From a virus: a stretch of DNA of 23,729 nucleotides. The stretch covers positions 1-23,729 of the IMG/VR virus record IMGVR_UViG_3300025013_000119; one strand, given 5' to 3'. The position numbers and the translations under genes were made by a program. Positions 6,940 to 20,651 of this stretch are shown here, in pieces. Each line of letters starts with the position of its first letter. Position 1 is the first letter of the stretch. Under the pieces are notes generated by a model. The model did not search any database. It was not told the DNA's origin and saw only the letters and a list, made by a program, of their open reading frames with translations.

Positions 6940-6986
6940 ACTTATCAGATTTCAAGGTCTTGTTCGGGCAGATCAGGACACTATTT
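6939..6986 (-). promoter_or_regulatory. Candidate activator-dependent late promoter B (terminase block)
   Basis: Second copy of the 35-bp element of 2063-2097 (here 6952-6986). The dyad TGTTC-N10-GGACA is at 6961-6980. At the same 17-base distance is an extended -10, TGA-TAAGTA (hexamer 6944-6939). The element sits between the stop of the Cys-rich gene and the small terminase gene. The predicted start is near 6932. Two copies with identical internal spacing, each between a stop codon and a late block, argue for a shared promoter rather than chance similarity. Confidence 0.6.
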
Positions 6987-7501: not shown

Positions 7502-7768
7502 TTATGTTTGAACTATCCGTCTGACCTGTTTTACCTTCAGCCGATACTTGATCGCCAATTCTTGATGATTACGCCCGGTGAACTCAATCTTGAGCCGGCG
7601 ATTACGCTCGGCCCGGTAGAGATGCTGGAAGTCAGGGAATGTGATCCGGTAACCACCGACCACCTCGACCATAACCTGGATGATCTGCGGCGCCATGTTG
7701 CCGAACTCACCATGCAGACGACTGAAAAGTTCTGTTACTACCTCTGTGTGCTCGGCCCTGGTCATCAT
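7502..7768 (-). CDS. Mor/C-family transcription activator
   Basis: An 88-aa protein matching the Mor activator family of Mu-like phages: an N-terminal dimerisation helix region, the GGYRITFP beta-strand turn (38-45), then IEFTGRNHQELAIKYRLKVK followed by QVRRIVQ, a helix-turn-helix (61-87). Mor and C bind as dimers to dyads beside -35 and recruit RNA polymerase to middle and late promoters that lack a proper -35. Two such sites are seen at 2050-2097 and 6939-6986. The first ATG (7768) shares ATGA with the integrase stop. The ATG at 7765 is better spaced from GGAGGG and may be the true start. It is short compared with Mu Mor (about 129 aa) because the N-terminus is reduced. Confidence 0.85.
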   Translation of the reverse strand: MMTRAEHTEVVTELFSRLHGEFGNMAPQIIQVMVEVVGGYRITFPDFQHLYRAERNRRLKIEFTGRNHQELAIKYRLKVKQVRRIVQT

Positions 7769-8754
7769 CCCTCCTCGATTTCATTGAAGCGCTTGTCCGG
7801 GATAGCGGTCTTGCGCAAGGTCCTCTCTGATATTGCAATGTAGCCCAGCGTGGTCTTCGGATCCTCGTGTCCCAGGAGAGCCATCACCTCGAAGACTCCA
7901 ACGGACTGGATGCCGTGTCCGCACCGCGGGCACTTGTCATGCCCGCTGTCATAAAGGTCGGTGGCGAACGTCGACCGCATCTTGTGCAGGAAAACCTCCG
8001 CATCGTCGATGCCGATCGTCCGGGAGTACTTCTTCAGGATGTTCTGATAGCTCTTGTCACTGAGCCGGTCGCTCCGCCCAGGGCGCCCCCCCTTCTTGAG
8101 CCGGATGAACACCGCAGCTGTGTCCGTCTCTATACCCTTCCTTACCAGCAACCATTCGCGTAGCGCCCTGGAGGGATTGGTGCGCATGGTTACCGTGCGA
8201 TCCTTCCCCCCCTTGCCGCCGATGATCTGTAGCCGGATATAACCACCGGTATCGATGCAGTGATTCATGTCCAGGTTGACCAGCTCCGAGACGCGGGGCC
8301 CGGCTGCATAGAGCGTCTTCAAAATAGCCAGGTCGCGCAACCCTTGGGTGGTGTCCCGATCCGGCGCCCTGAAGAGGAGGCGCAGCTCCTCCGTGCTGAA
8401 CTTCTGAGGAAGGGTTTCCTGGACCTTAGGTGAGGGGATACCCTTGGTAGGATCATCCTTCCGGTACCCGGCATACTTCATCCACTGGAAGAAACTCTTG
8501 ACTGCGGAGAGCTTGCTCGCCCTGGACCGGTTGGAGAGGTTCCCCATGTCATAGAAAAGCGCCTTCTGCCACTCCGTGACGTCCTCCCGGGAGGTCAGGA
8601 TAGGGTTACCCCCTTTGTCTGCCTCCAGTGCCCACCGGAAGAAGCCACGGGCCACCAGGCAGTACTGCTCCACTCCCCGTTGGCGCTGGCCCTTCTGGAT
8701 GAGCATGTGCTCCATCCATTCCGTGATAACCTGCTCAAAACTCACCTCCTTCAT
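7765..8754 (-). CDS. Tyrosine recombinase (full length, likely phage integrase)
   Basis: A 329-aa site-specific recombinase. An N-terminal SAM-like core-binding domain (about 5-100) is followed by the catalytic domain with Arg154 (AAGPRVSEL), Lys in GGKGGKDR (181/184), H257-x2-R260, His296 (LLGHEDPKTT) and nucleophile Tyr305. Between Arg260 and His296 there are 36 residues, against 23 in the two other recombinases of this window; the extra piece contains CPRCGH (275-280), a possible metal knuckle. The last codons overlap the Mor-like gene (ATGA). It reads leftward between the putative origin and the activator. It is the best candidate for prophage integration or excision, though no att core could be identified. 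Confidence 0.9.
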   Translation of the reverse strand: MKEVSFEQVITEWMEHMLIQKGQRQRGVEQYCLVARGFFRWALEADKGGNPILTSREDVTEWQKALFYDMGNLSNRSRASKLSAVKSFFQWMKYAGYRKDDPTKGIPSPKVQETLPQKFSTEELRLLFRAPDRDTTQGLRDLAILKTLYAAGPRVSELVNLDMNHCIDTGGYIRLQIIGGKGGKDRTVTMRTNPSRALREWLLVRKGIETDTAAVFIRLKKGGRPGRSDRLSDKSYQNILKKYSRTIGIDDAEVFLHKMRSTFATDLYDSGHDKCPRCGHGIQSVGVFEVMALLGHEDPKTTLGYIAISERTLRKTAIPDKRFNEIEEG

Positions 8755-9332: not shown

Positions 9333-9675
9333 ACTGCACCACTGCACCAACACCCCTCAAACCCGCACCCAGCCTAGCTTCAGGCCGTGGTGCAGTCCTC
9401 CAAACACCCCGACAACTGCACCACAACTGCACCACAACTGCACCAAGACTGCACCACAACTGCACCAAGACTAAGTTAATAATATAATTGAGTAATACCT
9501 AAATTTGGTGCAGTGGTGCAGTTGTTTTAGACATGCGCCATCATGTGCGCGGTCGGACCCTATAAAGAAGCCAGAAAGCCCGTTTGCCCCCTGTTTTCCC
9601 TGTCCGCTCTTACAACTGCACCAGACTGCACCACCATGACTGCACCGTGCTGCACCCCTTGGTTGGACTGCACCA
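9333..9675. repeat. Iteron cluster, probable phage replication origin
   Basis: The 9-mer ACTGCACCA occurs ten times on the plus strand (starting 9333, 9341, 9415, 9426, 9437, 9448, 9459, 9615, 9625, 9667) and three times inverted (9388, 9506, 9514), with degenerate copies at 9639 and 9649. Five are in tandem with an exact 11-bp period (9415-9467). They are followed by a very AT-rich stretch (about 9469-9505), then two inverted copies sharing one base, mirroring the pair at 9333-9349. This layout (phased iterons beside an AT-rich unwinding region, next to the 3' end of the primase-helicase gene) is that of an iteron origin such as phage P4 ori. The assignment as origin is inference. Confidence 0.75.
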
Positions 9676-9692
9676 CCCTGAATACCTGATGG

Positions 9693-12600
9693 CTACCTCA
9701 CCAGCGTATGCCTAAACTTGAAGAACCTGGTACCGCTGATGATCTTGAAGTACGGCTCCTTCCCCTCGGTCTCCATCAGCTCCCAACCGCTCTTGGCCAG
9801 CAGGCCCTTGTCATTGCGCAGCCTGGCCGTGAAGATCGATGCCGACTCATAAGGGTTCCGCTTCCCGGTGTTCTTGGCCAACCGATCGAAGGCATCCACC
9901 ACCTCCGCGGACGTTGCGATGAACTCAATGACCGACCTGCTGTAGCGATCACCGCTGCATTGGCACGCATCAGCCTTCTTAGAGCAGACACTGCAGTAGA
10001 TTTCCGGTACCGTCTTGACCATCCTGATGCCATACTCCGGATGCTCCATGGCAAACACCTTCTCCTCGTAACCCGGCTCGTCCGCAGGGATAAAGTTTGC
10101 CCTCCCCTTGAAGTACTGCATGTACTCCCTCACCAGGCCATCGAACAACTGCAGGATATGGTTGCTCCCCAACTCCGTTTCCTTGGCCGATGAGTTCTGA
10201 TCCTCGATCCATGCCGTGTAGATGTCCTTGTCCCCGCTCTCCACCCCGTACATCAGGTCACCCTCGGGATAGTAGGGAATGTACTTCAGGAGCTTCTCCA
10301 GGATGAGCATCAAGAGCGCCAGGTAAGCATTGGTGCGGTCCTTGGCATGGCCCTTGAACTGCTTGTTCAGGATCGTCATGAATTCCTTGCGCTGCTCCAG
10401 GTTGGGAAGGATCTCTTTCTGCAGGAACTTGACGATCGCCGACATGATCAGGTCGCGCTTCTTTTTAAGCTGTTCCATCACCTCCGACTCGTGGTAGTTG
10501 TCGGACCCATAGACGCGCCGGTCGAACTGGATCTCGAAGGTCCTGGAGATGAGTTCGGACAGAGTGAAGGGCTCTATCGCAGTGATGCAGATCAGCGCCC
10601 TGGGTGATTCGTCCACCGTGTCGGTATCGGTCCCCCCCTTGCGCTTCTCTTTCTGGCCCCTCGTCGCCGCCAGGAGGAGGAACTTCGTCATTCCCCTGGT
10701 CAAGTCCTTATGCTCCAGGTTGTCGATGACCAGGAGAGGGTTCTGGCTTGCCGCCGAGAAGGCCGCGGCGCCGGAGGGGTCGGAGAGCTGGTCATTGCCA
10801 TAGATCAGGGTCGTGATCCCCTTCGCTGCCGTCGACTTCCCGGAGCTCGCATAGCCGGCGAACTTCATCAGGAACTGGTAGGGCGCCATGTCAGGGCAGA
10901 ATCCGGAGATCATCCAGCACAAAATCATGAATTTCTGCTCCCGCTTCACAGCCAGGCCGTCCAGGAGGAGGTCCTTCAGGTAGGTCATGCCCTCCTGTAT
11001 GTCCGTGTCCGGCAGGAAGTTGAAGGGCTGAATCTTGTTCGAGCTGCTGAGCAGGATATGGTCATCGTTCATGCCGTTCTGGATCTCGTCTATCCTTTCC
11101 CTGGATATTTTCAGAATCGTATTGTTTGGGCTGTTCAGATTCATAAAGATGGTGTCGCGCACCACGTCCGTGTGGATCCACTGACACATCTCGATCATGC
11201 GGCCGTTGAGATACGCCGTATGCTTCAGGGCGTCCCACACCATGCTCCCCGGAGACTTGCTGATGATCATCCTGGTCAGCTTCAACATCAGCGCGTTGAA
11301 CGCCGTGTTGTTGTCGACCGTGTAGGTGCGGTTTTGGTAGATGAGATAGACAGTATTCTCCCGGTCATAGTAGAAACGCCCGTGGTGGGTGAAGAACTTG
11401 AAGCAGATCTCCGCCACCTGGATCGGGCAGGCGTCCTTCGGGTTGTCCAGGAAGGTGAAGTAATCCGTGATCTGCTTGTAGAGGTCCTGGGAGAAGTCGA
11501 GCTCTTGCTCGATCGCCTTCTGAGAGAAGCCGAGCGTCATCAGCTTCTCGGCGTAAACTTGCTGCTGGATGATGGCGTGCCGGCCGATCAGGCGGAACAC
11601 GTTCAGCGCCTCCTCCCCACCGGGCCCCTGCAGATGATCAAGCCGGAATTCCAGTGAAGAGAGCGCCGAGGCCTGGAGGATCTCCCAGGTGATGTAGTCG
11701 AGCGCATCTTGCTGCAGGCGCCGGACCTCCCGCTTGCGGTCCCCCTCGAACGCCTTCAGGAAGGAATCCGGATCATCACCCTCCTTGCCGTACACGATGA
11801 TGCGCACGTTGATTTCCGGCAGGGCGCGGCAGATTTTGCGCACATACTTGTGGCCGGCCTTGTCGTTGTCCACCCAGAGGTAGAGGTGCTTTCCCCTGCA
11901 GCGCGAAGCGAGCGCCTTCAGCTGCTCCTCGGAGATCTGCCCGATCATCGCCATGAAGTAGGCGAGGCCGGTGTTCAGCGCCTGGAGGCGGTCATGCTCC
12001 CCCTCGACCAGGATTACCTCGTCGTAGCGCTCCATGACGTCCTGGCCGTAGAAGACCCAGCGCTTGTCCCGCTGCTCGTTCGGCAGCTGGAAGGCCAGCT
12101 TCTTTTCCTTCGGAACGTCGCGCGCGTCCTTCATTGTGAAATGAACCACCCGGCCGCGGCTGAAATGGGGGAAGATCGCCAGCCCCTTGCCGAAGAAGTC
12201 GAGGACCCTGGTTCCCCCCTCGATCTCCTTTCCCTTGGCGAGCCCGCTCTCCACGATCTCTTTGTCCGTGAACTTCTTGTCTCGCAGGTGGTCCAGGAGA
12301 CGGCCGTCGCTCCAGCCGAGCTTCTCCTGAGCCATGGTGGCCGGGAGATGCCCGCGGAGTTCCAGGAAGTAACCAGTGCCGAGCTCCAGTGCCCGGGCGT
12401 GGTAGTACTCCGCCGCAATCTCCCGGATCTTCTCCGTAGTGGTCAGCGTTGGCTTGCGCTTCGCCTTATCCTCCAGCTTGACCCCGGCGATCTCCGCCGC
12501 GCGCTTCAGTGCGCCGGCCTTATCCAGATTGTAAAAGCGCTCGAGGAAGGAGAAGACGTCGCCGTGCGCCTCCGGAGCGCACTGGAAACAGTGGAAGTCC

Positions 12601-12746
12601 TGCTTGTCCGGCCTGATTGAAAAACAATCCCTCCCCTTGCAAAAAGGGCATTCCGGCAAATGTTTCCCCGGCATATCCTGAGAAGTTTCCGACAAGATGA
12701 CCGTCTTTATATTCAGCGCCGATTTGACCCGGATAAAATCACTCAT
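9693..12746 (-). CDS. Primase-helicase, replication initiation protein
   Basis: A 1017-aa replication protein. A CHC2-type zinc finger (C33, C36, C53, C56) and downstream primase region are followed by a TOPRIM domain: EGEHD (248-252), DND (293-295), DPDSF (325-329). A superfamily-3/AAA-like helicase follows: Walker A GYASSGKST (631-639), Walker B LLVID (671-675), likely arginine finger in SRTFEIQF (734-741). The C-terminus has a Cys group (918, 921, 928, 930) and a winged-helix-like end (about 935-1017). This order parallels P4 alpha protein, whose C-terminus binds origin iterons; here 13 perfect iterons lie just past the gene. The ATG at 12746 has only a distant GGGGG (12 bases), so coupling to the small frame upstream is possible. 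Confidence 0.88.
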   Translation of the reverse strand: MSDFIRVKSALNIKTVILSETSQDMPGKHLPECPFCKGRDCFSIRPDKQDFHCFQCAPEAHGDVFSFLERFYNLDKAGALKRAAEIAGVKLEDKAKRKPTLTTTEKIREIAAEYYHARALELGTGYFLELRGHLPATMAQEKLGWSDGRLLDHLRDKKFTDKEIVESGLAKGKEIEGGTRVLDFFGKGLAIFPHFSRGRVVHFTMKDARDVPKEKKLAFQLPNEQRDKRWVFYGQDVMERYDEVILVEGEHDRLQALNTGLAYFMAMIGQISEEQLKALASRCRGKHLYLWVDNDKAGHKYVRKICRALPEINVRIIVYGKEGDDPDSFLKAFEGDRKREVRRLQQDALDYITWEILQASALSSLEFRLDHLQGPGGEEALNVFRLIGRHAIIQQQVYAEKLMTLGFSQKAIEQELDFSQDLYKQITDYFTFLDNPKDACPIQVAEICFKFFTHHGRFYYDRENTVYLIYQNRTYTVDNNTAFNALMLKLTRMIISKSPGSMVWDALKHTAYLNGRMIEMCQWIHTDVVRDTIFMNLNSPNNTILKISRERIDEIQNGMNDDHILLSSSNKIQPFNFLPDTDIQEGMTYLKDLLLDGLAVKREQKFMILCWMISGFCPDMAPYQFLMKFAGYASSGKSTAAKGITTLIYGNDQLSDPSGAAAFSAASQNPLLVIDNLEHKDLTRGMTKFLLLAATRGQKEKRKGGTDTDTVDESPRALICITAIEPFTLSELISRTFEIQFDRRVYGSDNYHESEVMEQLKKKRDLIMSAIVKFLQKEILPNLEQRKEFMTILNKQFKGHAKDRTNAYLALLMLILEKLLKYIPYYPEGDLMYGVESGDKDIYTAWIEDQNSSAKETELGSNHILQLFDGLVREYMQYFKGRANFIPADEPGYEEKVFAMEHPEYGIRMVKTVPEIYCSVCSKKADACQCSGDRYSRSVIEFIATSAEVVDAFDRLAKNTGKRNPYESASIFTARLRNDKGLLAKSGWELMETEGKEPYFKIISGTRFFKFRHTLVR

Positions 12747-12753
12747 TTGTGAA

Positions 12754-14099
<1,346 letters not shown>

Positions 14100-14711: not shown

Positions 14712-14798
14712 GTTTAACCAGCAGGTCGAGGCGACCGAGCTGGCAATAGTTGGGCAGGTGGGCGAGAGTTGATGCGCCTCACCTGCAAATCGTTAGGC
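14712..14798. other. attC-like recombination site
   Basis: On the plus strand, GTTTAAC (14712-14718) and GTTAGGC (14792-14798) bracket two 12-base arms, GCAGGT-GAGGCG (14721-14733) and CGCCTCACCTGC (14775-14786). The arms pair perfectly apart from one unpaired C at 14727. A 41-base variable loop lies between. Paired R boxes, paired L arms, a single extrahelical base and 87-bp length are the defining features of integron attC sites. The minus-strand NADAR gene stops inside the GCCTAAC box and the DUF551 gene starts 13 bases past the other end, as in gene cassettes. Confidence 0.72.
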
Positions 14799-15647
14799 GG
14801 TCGCCCGCAGCTCGGCCCGAATCTCCATCCAGAGCCTGCCAAGCATGTTTACCCCATCCCGATCTTCGCCCCACCCCCAGAAATCATCACGCCAGGAGTC
14901 CTCTACCAGTTCACGGTCACCAGTCGCCAACAGCTTCCGCTTCACGTATTCGTGCCGGCTTGCCTTTGCGCGGAGGATGTCCCGCATGATGCCCACCTTT
15001 ACATCATCCCAGTCTGGGCGGCGTTCAGCCTTATGCGCTTCAGCAACTTTAAAAGCTTCGTGGGCTGAAATAGCATCTCTGATTTTCATCTGCAGGCTGA
15101 AGTTGCCGGGGAACTTCTCGGAATGGTAGGCCGCCTCCGAGGTATCGTAAGTCAGGCCCTTCCATGCCAGCCGAAAAGCCGAGAAATTCGACAGGACATA
15201 GAAGTCCTGTTCGTAGAAAAGAACCCTGTCCGGAGTATCCGACTTGTGGCACTCTGCCCAGCGCAGCCCCTCGCGGTACTGTTCCATCGTGAGTTCCGCG
15301 CCGCAATCATCGCAGTGCGCCACACCCTTTGCCTGGTCGTGACGGTCGCAGTAAAGAACGTTGCCGAAACAGTAAGGGCAACCTCCCGCCTGCATTCCAG
15401 CTGCGACGCGCATAGACCTGACAACGAGAGCAGCCAGTGCCTCATCGGCCTCGCGGCCTTCGCCGGTCGTGATATCCATGATGCTGCGGCACCCTTCGGG
15501 ATCGTCCAGACAGAACCCGATAACGGTGCACCCGTACCGCTGACTTTCGCCGGGTTCAAGATCCTCCACCGGCTTCAAGTAGTTGCAGTCGCTGTCCAGG
15601 GCTTGAACCTGGAGTTCATCAATCGGTTCCCACGCCTTCATATCCAT
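14793..15647 (-). CDS. NADAR-domain (YbiA-like) protein with zinc-ribbon N-terminal region
   Basis: A 284-aa protein. Residues 141-282 match the NADAR/DUF1768 fold: VLFYEQDFYVLSNFSAFRL, TSEAAYHSEKFPG (169-181, Glu171 in the active-site region), WDDVKVGIMRDILRAK, TGDRELVEDSWRDDFWGWG, and the ending GVNMLGRLWMEIR. NADAR proteins hydrolyse N-glycosidic bonds of riboflavin intermediates or remove ADP-ribose from nucleic acid. Residues 1-140 are additional: an acidic first part and a Cys-rich part (CPYC 90-93, C100, CDDC 112-115) likely binding zinc. GGAGGAG precedes the ATG at 15647, 15 bases after a GTTAGGC box. The stop TAA lies within GCCTAAC of the attC-like site. A role in countering ADP-ribosylating host defences is an inference. 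Confidence 0.85.
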   Translation of the reverse strand: MDMKAWEPIDELQVQALDSDCNYLKPVEDLEPGESQRYGCTVIGFCLDDPEGCRSIMDITTGEGREADEALAALVVRSMRVAAGMQAGGCPYCFGNVLYCDRHDQAKGVAHCDDCGAELTMEQYREGLRWAECHKSDTPDRVLFYEQDFYVLSNFSAFRLAWKGLTYDTSEAAYHSEKFPGNFSLQMKIRDAISAHEAFKVAEAHKAERRPDWDDVKVGIMRDILRAKASRHEYVKRKLLATGDRELVEDSWRDDFWGWGEDRDGVNMLGRLWMEIRAELRATA

Positions 15648-15661
15648 CTACTCCTCCTTGC

Positions 15662-15706
15662 GCCTAACCCGGCGCTGCTGCTCCGCAGAGCTTGGTTCCG
15701 TTATAC
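15662..15706. other. Short attC-like boundary
   Basis: GCCTAAC (15662-15668) and GTTATAC (15700-15706) on the plus strand bracket 31 bases that include a GCTC/GAGC hairpin. On the minus strand the 266-aa gene stops inside GTATAAC and the NADAR gene starts 15 bases after GTTAGGC, the same layout as at 14712-14798. At 45 bp it is shorter than known attC sites, the L arms do not pair well, and GTTATAC departs from GTTRRRY at one base. It may be a decayed or deleted site. Confidence 0.4.
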
Positions 15707-16501
15707 AACTAGATATTGTTTGTTGATAATGCCTTTTGTGGGGTCACCGACCACGCAGGAATTGACCCAAATATTGCCGTTTTGAAGCCGCCGAATGTGA
15801 CCCCGGCGAAGATGTTGCTTCGGAGAAGCATGTGTTTGTGGGCTGCTGTCAGATTTGGCATGGCATGCAGTGCGCGAATTAATCACAAGCATTTTGGTTT
15901 CATAAAAAGGGAGCTTGCCAGATTTCACCCGTTTAACGTTGGCTGGAGAAGCTTCTTGGAAATTGATAGTGGACACGTTTCGGCAAGAAAGAGCCTCTAA
16001 TAACTCAAATAAGTTGCACATTGACCCTGCAACCTGAGTATCGAGGGTGATGGTATAATTATTATCTTGTAAAGAAACACAATCCATGTATCTCGTATGA
16101 AAGCACGATAAGACATCAGACACTGAAAATGATTTTAGTTTATCAACTATTGCAACTGCGGGGACTATAAACCAGTTTTCGCCTTCTCCATGGATAGTAT
16201 GCACAAATATCTTTTCATCATCTGAATCAATAAATATCACCTTCTTTATTTTGTATCCAGTCTTTGAAAGAGCCAAAAATTCAATAGTGAACGAAGAAAA
16301 AGGGAGTTCCAGCGGCAAATCATTTAGACCTTTGAAATGGTCATCCATAATTTTCCCTGAATCTGGCATAACAAAATGAACAGCTTCCCCGAGCAACTTG
16401 CATATAAGTTCAACAGGTTTGGCCATACGGGGTGACACGTTCGGCAAAGTGTTTATCAGCCCCTTTTGTGCCTGTGCCACATAATTTTTTGCTGTTATCA
16501 T
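15701..16501 (-). CDS. AT-rich hypothetical accessory protein (266 aa)
   Basis: Not recognised with certainty. The first 200 residues look like a globular domain of mixed strands and helices (for example KIKKVIFIDSDDEKIFVHTI and YTITLDTQVAGSMCNLFELL). The C-terminal part has the motif HLRRGHIRRLQNGNIWVNSC followed by VVGDPTKGIINKQYLV (about 231-265), which recurs at the end of many uncharacterised phage and plasmid proteins. The coding sequence is visibly richer in A and T than its neighbours, a sign of separate origin. CGGAG lies seven bases before the ATG at 16501. Its TAA stop is part of a GTATAAC box, consistent with a cassette-borne gene. Confidence 0.7.
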   Translation of the reverse strand: MITAKNYVAQAQKGLINTLPNVSPRMAKPVELICKLLGEAVHFVMPDSGKIMDDHFKGLNDLPLELPFSSFTIEFLALSKTGYKIKKVIFIDSDDEKIFVHTIHGEGENWFIVPAVAIVDKLKSFSVSDVLSCFHTRYMDCVSLQDNNYTITLDTQVAGSMCNLFELLEALSCRNVSTINFQEASPANVKRVKSGKLPFYETKMLVINSRTACHAKSDSSPQTHASPKQHLRRGHIRRLQNGNIWVNSCVVGDPTKGIINKQYLVV

Positions 16502-16520
16502 GATGGATCTCCGAAATATG

Positions 16521-16536
16521 TAACGGTTAACCGTTA
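16521..16536. repeat. 16-bp perfect palindrome between two accessory genes
   Basis: TAACGGTTAACCGTTA is its own reverse complement. It lies in the 43-base gap between the 83-aa gene stop and the 266-aa gene start and overlaps GTTTAAC and GTTAACC boxes of the type seen at the cassette boundaries. It may be an operator or a collapsed recombination site. Too small to fold into an attC. Confidence 0.6.
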
Positions 16537-16544
16537 AACCGGGC

Positions 16545-16796
16545 TCAGCCGGCTTTCCTCACATCCAGTTCGTTACCCCACCGTGCGCCAGTCTCTATGC
16601 CGAGCCGATCTGCCATTTCAAGCACGCCTCTCATGGCGTGGTCTGCCGGTGTTAGCGGGCCGTCCTGCTCATAACTGTCCAGAGGTAACCCATTGGCAAT
16701 GCGGATCTGTTTGATTGTGTACGTGACTGACAGGGCGATGAAATTCAGCGCGTCCTGGTCAATGAGAAATCCTTTCGTCGGGGCATGGTATCTCAT
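16545..16796 (-). CDS. Hypothetical phage protein (83 aa)
   Basis: Not recognised. The protein is mostly helical (DQDALNFIALSVTYTIKQIR, then PLTPADHAMRGVLEMADRLG) with no catalytic motif or membrane segment. Its ATG at 16796 overlaps the stop of the DUF1599-like gene by four bases (ATGA), so the two are translated together. It stops with TGA just before the palindrome at 16521-16536. Confidence 0.65.
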   Translation of the reverse strand: MRYHAPTKGFLIDQDALNFIALSVTYTIKQIRIANGLPLDSYEQDGPLTPADHAMRGVLEMADRLGIETGARWGNELDVRKAG

Positions 16797-19732: not shown

Positions 19733-20323
19733 TTACCCCAGTGCCTCGACCGCGTCGACCATCTCGTCCCAGGTTGCTTCAGTGTAAATCCCGGTCGACG
19801 CCAGCGAGGCGTGTCCGGCTATCTTCTGGATCGTGGTGAGAGCCACTCCGCGCTCCTGCATCCGCTTGAAGCACGAATGACGCAGGCTGTGCGCCGAATA
19901 GAGCGCCACCACCTCGCCGCCCTTGGTAGTCGTCAATCCTGCCCGGACCAGCCACCCTTCGACCAGGTCCTGCAGGCTCCTTTTGCTAAGCCTCCCGCCG
20001 TTGCGGGAAACGAAGAGGGGCGCGTCGTCCCGGATGCTCTCCTTCCAGGACAACTTGTCCCGGAACAATCCCTTGAGCGTCCGCTGCAGGTCCGCGCTCA
20101 CCGGGATGAAGCGCGCCTTGCCCCGTTTGGCGATCTCCGGCCGGACGTGCAGCTTCTCCTTGCCCCGCAGGTCCCCCACGTTCAGCCCCACCAGCTCCGC
20201 GGCGCGCAGGCCGGTACCGAGCAGCAGCTCGATGATCACCCGGTCCCGCTCCGCCTTCTTGCCCTTGATCTCCTTCACCGTCCGGAGCAGGGCCTTCTCC
20301 TCTTTGTCCGTCAGATACTTCAT
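19733..20323 (-). CDS. Minimal tyrosine recombinase (catalytic domain only)
   Basis: The start is the ATG at 20323 with GGAGG five bases upstream; the frame open above it crosses a terminator and is unlike protein. The 196 residues hold the entire active site: Arg40 (GTGLRAAEL), Lys66/69 (AKRGKARFIPV), H145-x2-R148 (SAHSLRHS), His171 (GHASLAST) and Tyr180. The N-terminal core-binding domain of ordinary integrases is absent. The length matches FimB/FimE-type recombinases, which invert short DNA segments, but a partner supplying DNA binding is also possible. No invertible segment was found nearby. It starts after the terminator at 20356-20411 and therefore may have its own promoter. Confidence 0.85.
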   Translation of the reverse strand: MKYLTDKEEKALLRTVKEIKGKKAERDRVIIELLLGTGLRAAELVGLNVGDLRGKEKLHVRPEIAKRGKARFIPVSADLQRTLKGLFRDKLSWKESIRDDAPLFVSRNGGRLSKRSLQDLVEGWLVRAGLTTTKGGEVVALYSAHSLRHSCFKRMQERGVALTTIQKIAGHASLASTGIYTEATWDEMVDAVEALG

Positions 20324-20355
20324 GATCGCCTCCATCATGTTTGAGCCCCGTTTAG

Positions 20356-20411
20356 AAAAATCCCCCTGGCCGCCGGCGGAGCGTTCCGGCAGGATGCCTC
20401 CCTGCCAGGGG
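20356..20411 (-). terminator. Rho-independent terminator of the early leftward operon
   Basis: On the minus strand CCCCTGGC (20411... to 20404 region) pairs perfectly with GCCAGGGG (20370-20363) over eight bases, with an inner CCGG-containing structure and a run of five Ts (20360-20356) shortly after. It lies 12 bases past the stop of the 75-aa membrane protein and before the minimal recombinase. Confidence 0.7.
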
Positions 20412-20423
20412 AAACTGGTGTGA

Positions 20424-20651
20424 CTATCGATACCACCTGGACACAATCTCCTGCCTGGTCTTGGCGGCCGGGTCATGTTGCGCGCCGTAGGCATCCTTGG
20501 GCATCTCCAAGCGCCCCTCGCGCAGACCCAGCTGGAGGCCGAGCACGAAGAAAACCAGGCCGAAAACGGAGAGGAGAAACACCTTGGTGAAAAGCTGTAG
20601 GTCCGCCTCTTCCTGCCCGTCATCATAGCGATTCGCCTTAAATGAATTCAC
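20424..20651 (-). CDS. Small single-pass membrane protein (75 aa)
   Basis: Starts at GTG 20651, overlapping the previous stop as GTGA, with AAGGGGG and GAAGG upstream. One transmembrane helix (LFTKVFLLSVFGLVFFVLGL, about 20-42) is followed by a charged tail (GLREGRLEMPKDAYGAQHDP, then AAKTRQEIVSRWYR). The N-terminus is short and polar. The function is unknown; small membrane proteins in phage early operons are sometimes superinfection-exclusion or host-takeover factors, which is only a suggestion. It is the last gene before the terminator. Confidence 0.7.
   Translation of the reverse strand: MNSFKANRYDDGQEEADLQLFTKVFLLSVFGLVFFVLGLQLGLREGRLEMPKDAYGAQHDPAAKTRQEIVSRWYR

Follow-up and report, generated by a model that had tools for sequence, protein, structure and literature searches.

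The origins described in phage P4, in SaPI/PICI elements, in SCCmec and in Rep-type iteron plasmids offer the closest comparisons for the locus reported here. In P4, the annotated repeats of ori (strand spelling GGTGAACA) run as three direct copies at 10 and 11 bp, then 22 bp, one inverted copy, 43 bp across an AT-rich stretch and a direct pair 10 bp apart, while crr, located directly 3' of the alpha gene, consists of inverted copies, 43 bp and a direct pair 9 bp apart. According to published reports, a winged-helix or C-terminal domain binds the repeats in P4 and SaPI (PMC4234260, PMC7581432), and SaPI Rep and SCCmec Cch2 recognise repeats directly 3' of their own genes (PMC7581432). PMC6092414 states that PICI origins always have two iteron sets flanking an AT-rich region, and lists the absence of phage structural genes and a size of about 12-15 kb among the PICI criteria.

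We examined the IMG/VR virus record IMGVR_UViG_3300025013_000119 over its positions 1 to 23,729 (23,729 bp, referred to below as the window or the record), which carries a dense repeat array at 9333-9675. This array is very probably a phage replication origin that is recognised by the product of the primase-helicase gene directly 5' of it, and the best reading of the sequence is a self-loading primase-helicase origin that would be P4/SaPI-like in its logic and belong to a separate protein family. The site resembles SaPI/PICI origins, as described in PMC6092414 and PMC7581432, in lying directly 3' of the initiator gene and in having iteron sets that flank an AT-rich region; compared with those descriptions, the new layout is longer and places inverted and direct copies at fixed distances. 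The element itself is not a PICI because structural genes are present, namely a portal gene (phrog_30703, 2.2e-48) and a terminase-like gene (phrog_2, 9.3e-7), and its relatives measure 37-50 kb. For SCCmec, the description in PMC7581432 gives only three iterons, a separate primase protein and a chromosomal cassette rather than a phage. Rep-type iteron plasmids likewise combine iterons with an AT-rich region, but the initiator here is a primase-helicase, and its iterons, spaced at 11 bp, measure about 9 bp, unlike repeats of about 20 bp such as those that accompany rep on the Desulfocapsa plasmid.

The repeat array and its occurrence in the family

Relative to the array, the primase-helicase gene (9693-12746, minus strand) is on the 5' side, and a tyrosine recombinase gene (7765-8754, minus strand) follows downstream. 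Thirteen exact copies of ACTGCACCA are present at 9333-9675 and none elsewhere in the 23,729 bp; ten are direct (plus strand, starting at 9333, 9341, 9415, 9426, 9437, 9448, 9459, 9615, 9625 and 9667) and three inverted (minus strand, 9388, 9506 and 9514). With one mismatch allowed, ACTGCACCA matched 23 times in the record, compared to a mean of 4.93 and a largest value of 12 in 100 dinucleotide shuffles, and the spaced pattern TGCACC-N3-8-TGCACC-N3-8-TGCACC matched five times, compared to zero in 100 shuffles. Closest to the primase gene, an iteron group on the plus strand (9615-9675) contains the exact copies at 9615, 9625 and 9667 together with two degenerate ones, ACTGCACCG at 9639 and GCTGCACCC at about 9649, which had been overlooked by the earlier note; since these are present, the 7-mer CTGCACC occurs 15 times in the array, its sole cluster in the record. 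Similar extra copies near the primase gene are found in many relatives. The motif positions further define an inverted pair 8 bp apart on the minus strand (9506-9522; the left facing pair in the sense of the primase gene), an AT-rich gap of 38 bp with no assigned strand (9468-9505; 83% AT over the 36 bp measured) that is presumed to be the unwinding element, five tandem iterons on the plus strand (9415-9467), a single iteron in the opposite orientation (9388-9396, minus strand), and a distal pair 8 bp apart on the plus strand (9333-9349) that is the mirror image of 9506-9522. The mirrored pairs form 18-nt arms, 9333-9350 and 9505-9522, that are 100% complementary. Thus, the exact motif search recovered what had been proposed for the site, i.e., thirteen perfect copies (ten direct and three inverted), five of them in tandem at exactly 11 bp, and an AT-rich core of about 36 bp. 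The mirrored pairs had also been put forward as an unusual symmetry; the pairs are there, but they are a recurrent part of the layout in relatives and in that respect not unusual. An Rfam scan of the record at gathering thresholds returned nothing.

A full-length homologue of the primase-helicase (45% identity) is encoded on the Desulfocapsa sulfexigens plasmid NC_020305.1 (L006), and further primase loci were found in virus contigs and genome assemblies, some labelled Geobacter or Desulfuromonadales; the gene was carried, at E <= 1e-100, by 11 of 277 genomes from the class to which the Geobacter MAG belongs. The set used for counting comprised 44 loci, after removal of duplicate, truncated or too distant ones (L005, L020, L021, L022, L014, L029, L030, L031, L011 and L017) and of L024, which is identical to L047; L018 had given no match in the search before, and the near-duplicates L033/L034 and L032/L036 remain among the 44. 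The 1 kb downstream of each primase gene was scanned de novo for five words at 10-12 bp spacing, with the word itself unspecified and a cut at a score of at least 30 of 40. This cut was reached within 1 kb for 38 of the 44 homologues, compared to a maximum of 28.5 in 44 shuffles. In three others (L049, L053 and L054), the array keeps its layout and lies next to the integrase, but its distance from the primase gene is 1.4-2.1 kb rather than about 0.2 kb, so that 41 of 44 homologues in total have a five-copy array at about 11-bp spacing 3' of the gene. The three without a counted array are L027 and L028, whose flanks are short (none found in 1497 and 935 bp, respectively), and L016, in which the homology covers the primase part only (score 29.0). 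Control stretches of real DNA reached the cut in 0 of 44 cases within genes, 1 of 37 upstream and 2 of 35 further downstream; the upstream match is the GA microsatellite of the IMGVR_UViG_3300025013_000119 record, one downstream match is the true array of L049, and the other was not traced to a source.

Full-length or near-full-length relatives found later (L109, L112 and L134) scored 34-36.5, and L116 scored 28.5, yet its array and an inverted pair are visible by eye. The score of 31.5 for L133 came from a G-rich stretch, and this locus was left out of the array counts. A search with the phrog_47 profile in the class of G004 gave matches in 235 of 257 genomes; most of those listed covered only about profile positions 20-390 and were taken to be host DnaG, and the six longer ones are distant relatives (L062-L067) in which an array was not found in about 1.5 kb.

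Fixed geometry, variable word and comparison with P4

Read in the sense of the primase gene, the layout consists of an inverted copy (often a pair 8 bp apart), about 46 bp with the AT-rich core, five direct copies at about 11 bp, about 28 bp, one inverted copy, about 46 bp, and a direct copy (often a pair). With the first of the five copies as the reference, the inverted copies are at about −54 and −46, the direct block runs from 0 to about 44, the next inverted copy is at about +72, and the last direct copies are at about +118 and +126. Among 43 loci (L034 dropped; L049, L053, L054, L109, L112 and L134 added; L116 not added), the left inverted site was in place in 35, the middle inverted site in 37 and the right direct site in 39, whereas of the eight control windows, all of equal width, six contained no match and the other two had 1 and 2. 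Both matches in the latter come from L052 and L109, where the left pair is displaced and lies about 20 bp further out, i.e., about two helical turns. Counted as misses are L010, L045 and L046, including L010, whose facing copies are visible by eye, the automatic 8-mer having taken in linker bases. Pairs 7-9 bp apart were present in 23 left windows and 26 right windows of the 43 loci; doubling of the outer copies is common, short of universal. Between the left copies and the direct block, the AT content was 78-92% in all of 37 loci (L034 dropped), while the other intervals average about half.

The iteron words, in contrast, differ widely among loci (GGTGCAGT, GGTAGCAGT, GGTTGCAAGT, GGTGAAAGT, GGGGGAAAGT and others), with one word used nearly throughout each locus and changes occurring at nearly all sites together. 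For example, L012 has 13 copies of GGTGCAG and no GTAGCAG, and L013 has 10 copies of GTAGCAG and no GGTGCAG, despite proteins that are 71-88% identical by domain; in the same comparison, L044 is mixed, with 10 and 2 copies of the two words. Across these loci, the geometry is conserved and the word free to vary. This origin variant would be notable precisely because its spacing is conserved while its word is not.

Part of this layout is shared by P4 ori and crr. The order of direct block, single inverted copy, gap and direct pair recurs in P4, where the distances are 22 and 43 bp compared to about 28 and 46 bp here, and the P4 iterons, GGTGAACA(GT), are likewise spaced at 10-11 bp. The word of the record is TGGTGCAGT rather than GGTGAACA(GT); the nearest word of the family is GGTGAAAGT, found in L010, L042 and L046, which equals the P4 iteron GGTGAACAGT minus one base. 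The proposal of a P4-ori-like layout with a different 9-mer is therefore borne out, in that a partial layout and a similar word are shared with P4. As a correction on position, the P4 site directly 3' of alpha is crr and ori lies elsewhere, whereas the new phages have one combined site holding both kinds of part. The new arrays also differ from P4 in having five tandem copies instead of three, an extra inverted copy or pair on the left, and the AT-rich gap on the other (left) side of the direct block, and the new element, unlike P4, carries portal and terminase-like genes. At the protein level, both P4 alpha and the 1017-aa protein have a Zn/TOPRIM primase fused N-terminally to a helicase. The best PHROG is 2249 for P4 alpha and phrog_47 for the 1017-aa protein, and an hhalign comparison with P4 alpha covers the primase part only (prob 95.4, profile positions 2-337), leaving the helicase and C-terminal parts outside the P4 alpha family. 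Because of this difference in PHROG and the profile link over the primase part only, we do not file the system as a P4 alpha member, although the array appears to work like P4.

The primase-helicase and its link to the iteron word

The presumed initiator (1017 aa; 9693-12746, minus strand, as for all its domains) begins with a CHC2 zinc ribbon (residues 7-94, 12465-12728; Pfam PF01807, 4.6e-9), followed by a TOPRIM domain with the DnaG fold (residues 245-330, 11757-12014; Pfam PF13155, 5.9e-10), a D5/SF3-like helicase part (residues 535-866, 10149-11144; phrog_47) and a C-terminal domain (residues 934-1017, 9696-9947; model pLDDT 90.7), the putative iteron reader. In Foldseek searches, the predicted structure (mean pLDDT 84) matched DnaG primases (2au3, 4.0e-17) and, for the helicase part, SCCmec Cch (5dgk, 4.7e-10), poxvirus D5/E5 helicases and the SaPI5 primase-helicase (7ola, 5.1e-6). 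The model thus indicates a DnaG-like primase joined to a D5/SF3-like helicase that is similar to Cch of SCCmec and to the primase-helicase of SaPI5. The zinc cysteines, the TOPRIM acids and the P-loop GK (G636-K637) are invariant in 38 aligned sequences. For the C-terminal domain, Foldseek gave no match at 1e-3, and VIA-align gave Z scores of at most 4.8, with RepE54 (4.2) and ORC (3.0) amid unrelated folds, so no fold family is claimed. Among 50,697 phage records, none covers 80% of the 1017-aa protein and the C-terminal 593 residues have no match at E <= 0.01; the family therefore seems unrepresented in the phage records searched. In the literature, no title or opening of an abstract was found that describes this primase-helicase family or the array layout.

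The distances between iteron words were then compared with those between proteins in 30 loci, using only integrase ORFs of at least 280 aa. With the integrase distance removed, word distance followed primase distance (partial r 0.595; 0 of 2000 permutations as high, the permutations here and in the domain comparison ignoring shared ancestry), whereas with the primase distance removed, the partial r for the integrase was −0.223. The earlier suggestion that the iterons belong to the neighbouring primase-helicase is strengthened by these values, as the words evolve with the primase rather than with the integrase. Word distances correlated with all domains of the protein. The C-terminal domain gave a partial r of 0.325 against the primase domain (2 of 2000 permutations), but against the helicase it did not stand out (partial r 0.124; 247 of 2000 permutations), and the 40 residues with the highest mutual information are scattered across the whole protein. 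Since the word follows the primase and the C-terminal domain is not singled out, these data support the initiator as a whole as the partner of the array; by analogy with P4 and SaPI, the C-terminal domain may be the part that reads the iterons.

The iterons are tied to the adjacent initiator and evolve with it, which is the mark of self-loading primase-helicase origins. An origin beside the primase-helicase, as had been suggested, is also supported by the family-wide retention of the array 3' of the gene and by an AT-rich gap at a fixed place. In the mechanism that we propose, the C-terminal domain of the primase-helicase would read the iteron word, the five helically phased copies would seed an initiator oligomer, and the facing inverted copies would position a second assembly. 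The AT-rich core would be the loading site of one or two D5/SF3-type hexamers, which would melt it and go on to unwind the DNA, after which the attached DnaG-like primase would lay primers and the host polymerase would take over, resulting in theta-type replication after induction or infection. As a source of independent support for an origin, GC skew in six contigs left the array unmarked in most, and an extremum coincided with it in one, G551.

Alternative explanations, wider layout and neighbouring genes

The position of the array matches that of P4 crr, and an accessory cis site of this kind, acting in replication control or incompatibility with the true origin elsewhere as in P4, would account for that position. 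We consider it quite unlikely, as the site includes the P4-ori-like order of copies and a second large word cluster was found neither in the record nor in six contigs of 37-50 kb (these contigs are possibly incomplete, and a further origin could rely on a different word). In all seven contigs tested, again with the caveat that they may be incomplete, there was one cluster of at least nine word copies and otherwise stray pairs and singletons, rather than two sites.

A role of the repeats in integration and excision, as arm-type sites within attP that the neighbouring tyrosine integrase would use, is very unlikely. It is true that 35 of the 41 array loci have an integrase ORF downstream, in most cases 270-770 bp past the array, and that in L049, L053 and L054 it is the primase from which the array has moved away, with the integrase still nearby. 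The six array loci with no integrase match comprise L038, L039 and L009, in which less than 800 bp is left, and L013, L006 and L015, in which at least 5.7 kb is. L013 has an array and no integrase match in 5.8 kb downstream, and neither L006 nor L015 has a match to the integrase of the record, though the next gene in L006 is annotated as a tyrosine recombinase. Moreover, the integrase of the record is XerD-like, and its SAM-like core-binding domain occupies residues 10-93 of 329, leaving no room for an N-terminal arm-binding domain. Arm-type sites are thus disfavoured both by this domain content and by the word-versus-protein distances given above. Clustered short sites can also be operators or centromere-like sites, but a regulatory role apart from replication, whether as operator, partition site or otherwise, is extremely unlikely for an array that 41 of 44 loci have 3' of a replication gene, that keeps its AT-rich gap in place and whose word follows the primase.

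Taking the array as a replication origin, we tentatively propose, as a possibility somewhat short of even odds, that such origins are coded by spacing and not by the word, through two facing inverted-gap-direct modules that would make up a general origin grammar of phage primase-helicases, of which P4 would be a reduced form. In this proposal, the layout is held within a few bp while the word changes at nearly all sites together with the initiator, and each inverted-gap-direct module would seat one hexamer of a facing pair. Three virus loci share only the primase half (35%; L121, L122 and L123) and have arrays that score 31-34; L121 equals L122 over the array region, and the helicase half of L121 and L123 matches phrog_1139. 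In L123, inspection by eye gives an inverted pair (8 bp apart), then 57 bp, the five direct copies, 29 bp, an inverted copy, 58 bp and a direct pair (8 bp apart). The corresponding gaps are 54 and 56 bp in L016 and, in the less regular L121, 45 and 58 bp; in both L123 and L016, the two gaps are longer together by about a helical turn. As the words of L121, L123 and L016 were picked after looking, the recurrence of the layout next to initiators with helicase halves from other families is only a lead.

The family offers natural origin-initiator pairs in which the geometry is fixed and the recognition word varies. Joint change of the DNA-reading part and the origin, and the placement of hexamers by spacing, could be tested through swaps of words and spacers. 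For relatives of Geobacter and Desulfocapsa, the pairs are candidate replicons that would be orthogonal to one another, and P4 ori would take its place as one variant of a wider layout. On the Desulfocapsa sulfexigens plasmid (L006), a second replicon at 15010-16708 comprises an annotated replication initiation (rep) gene and iterons of about 21 bp near 16410-16708; the primase module may thus not be the only or main replicon of this plasmid, and its primase array may be a former or alternative one.

Downstream of the primase-helicase gene and in the same direction, the record encodes a XerD-like recombinase, a Mor-like activator, a terminase-like protein and a portal protein, for which matches were found in 37, 32, 18 and 7 of the fetched loci, respectively. 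CII-like (CP76) and CI-repressor-like genes are also present, from which we infer that the element looks like a temperate phage. The IMG record of L047 has the same downstream DNA as L024, which lies inside a 4.2-Mb genome at about 1.157 Mb, suggesting that this relative is an integrated prophage. The 23.7-kb contig encodes three different tyrosine recombinases, all on the minus strand (7765-8754, 12933-14099 and 19733-20626). The second of these, located just upstream of the primase gene, exceeds the curated threshold for the integron integrase family TIGR02249 (361.9 bits against a cut-off of 265) and has matches in 11 fetched loci. A long GA dinucleotide run is also located just upstream of the primase gene, at 12876-12932. 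A 35-bp direct repeat (2063-2097 and 6952-6986; 91% identical) lies in each case just 3' of a gene end, and its copies are perhaps late promoters or terminators. Finally, the minus-strand gene at 14793-15647 encodes a NADAR-domain protein (Pfam PF08719, 5.7e-26) in this phage.
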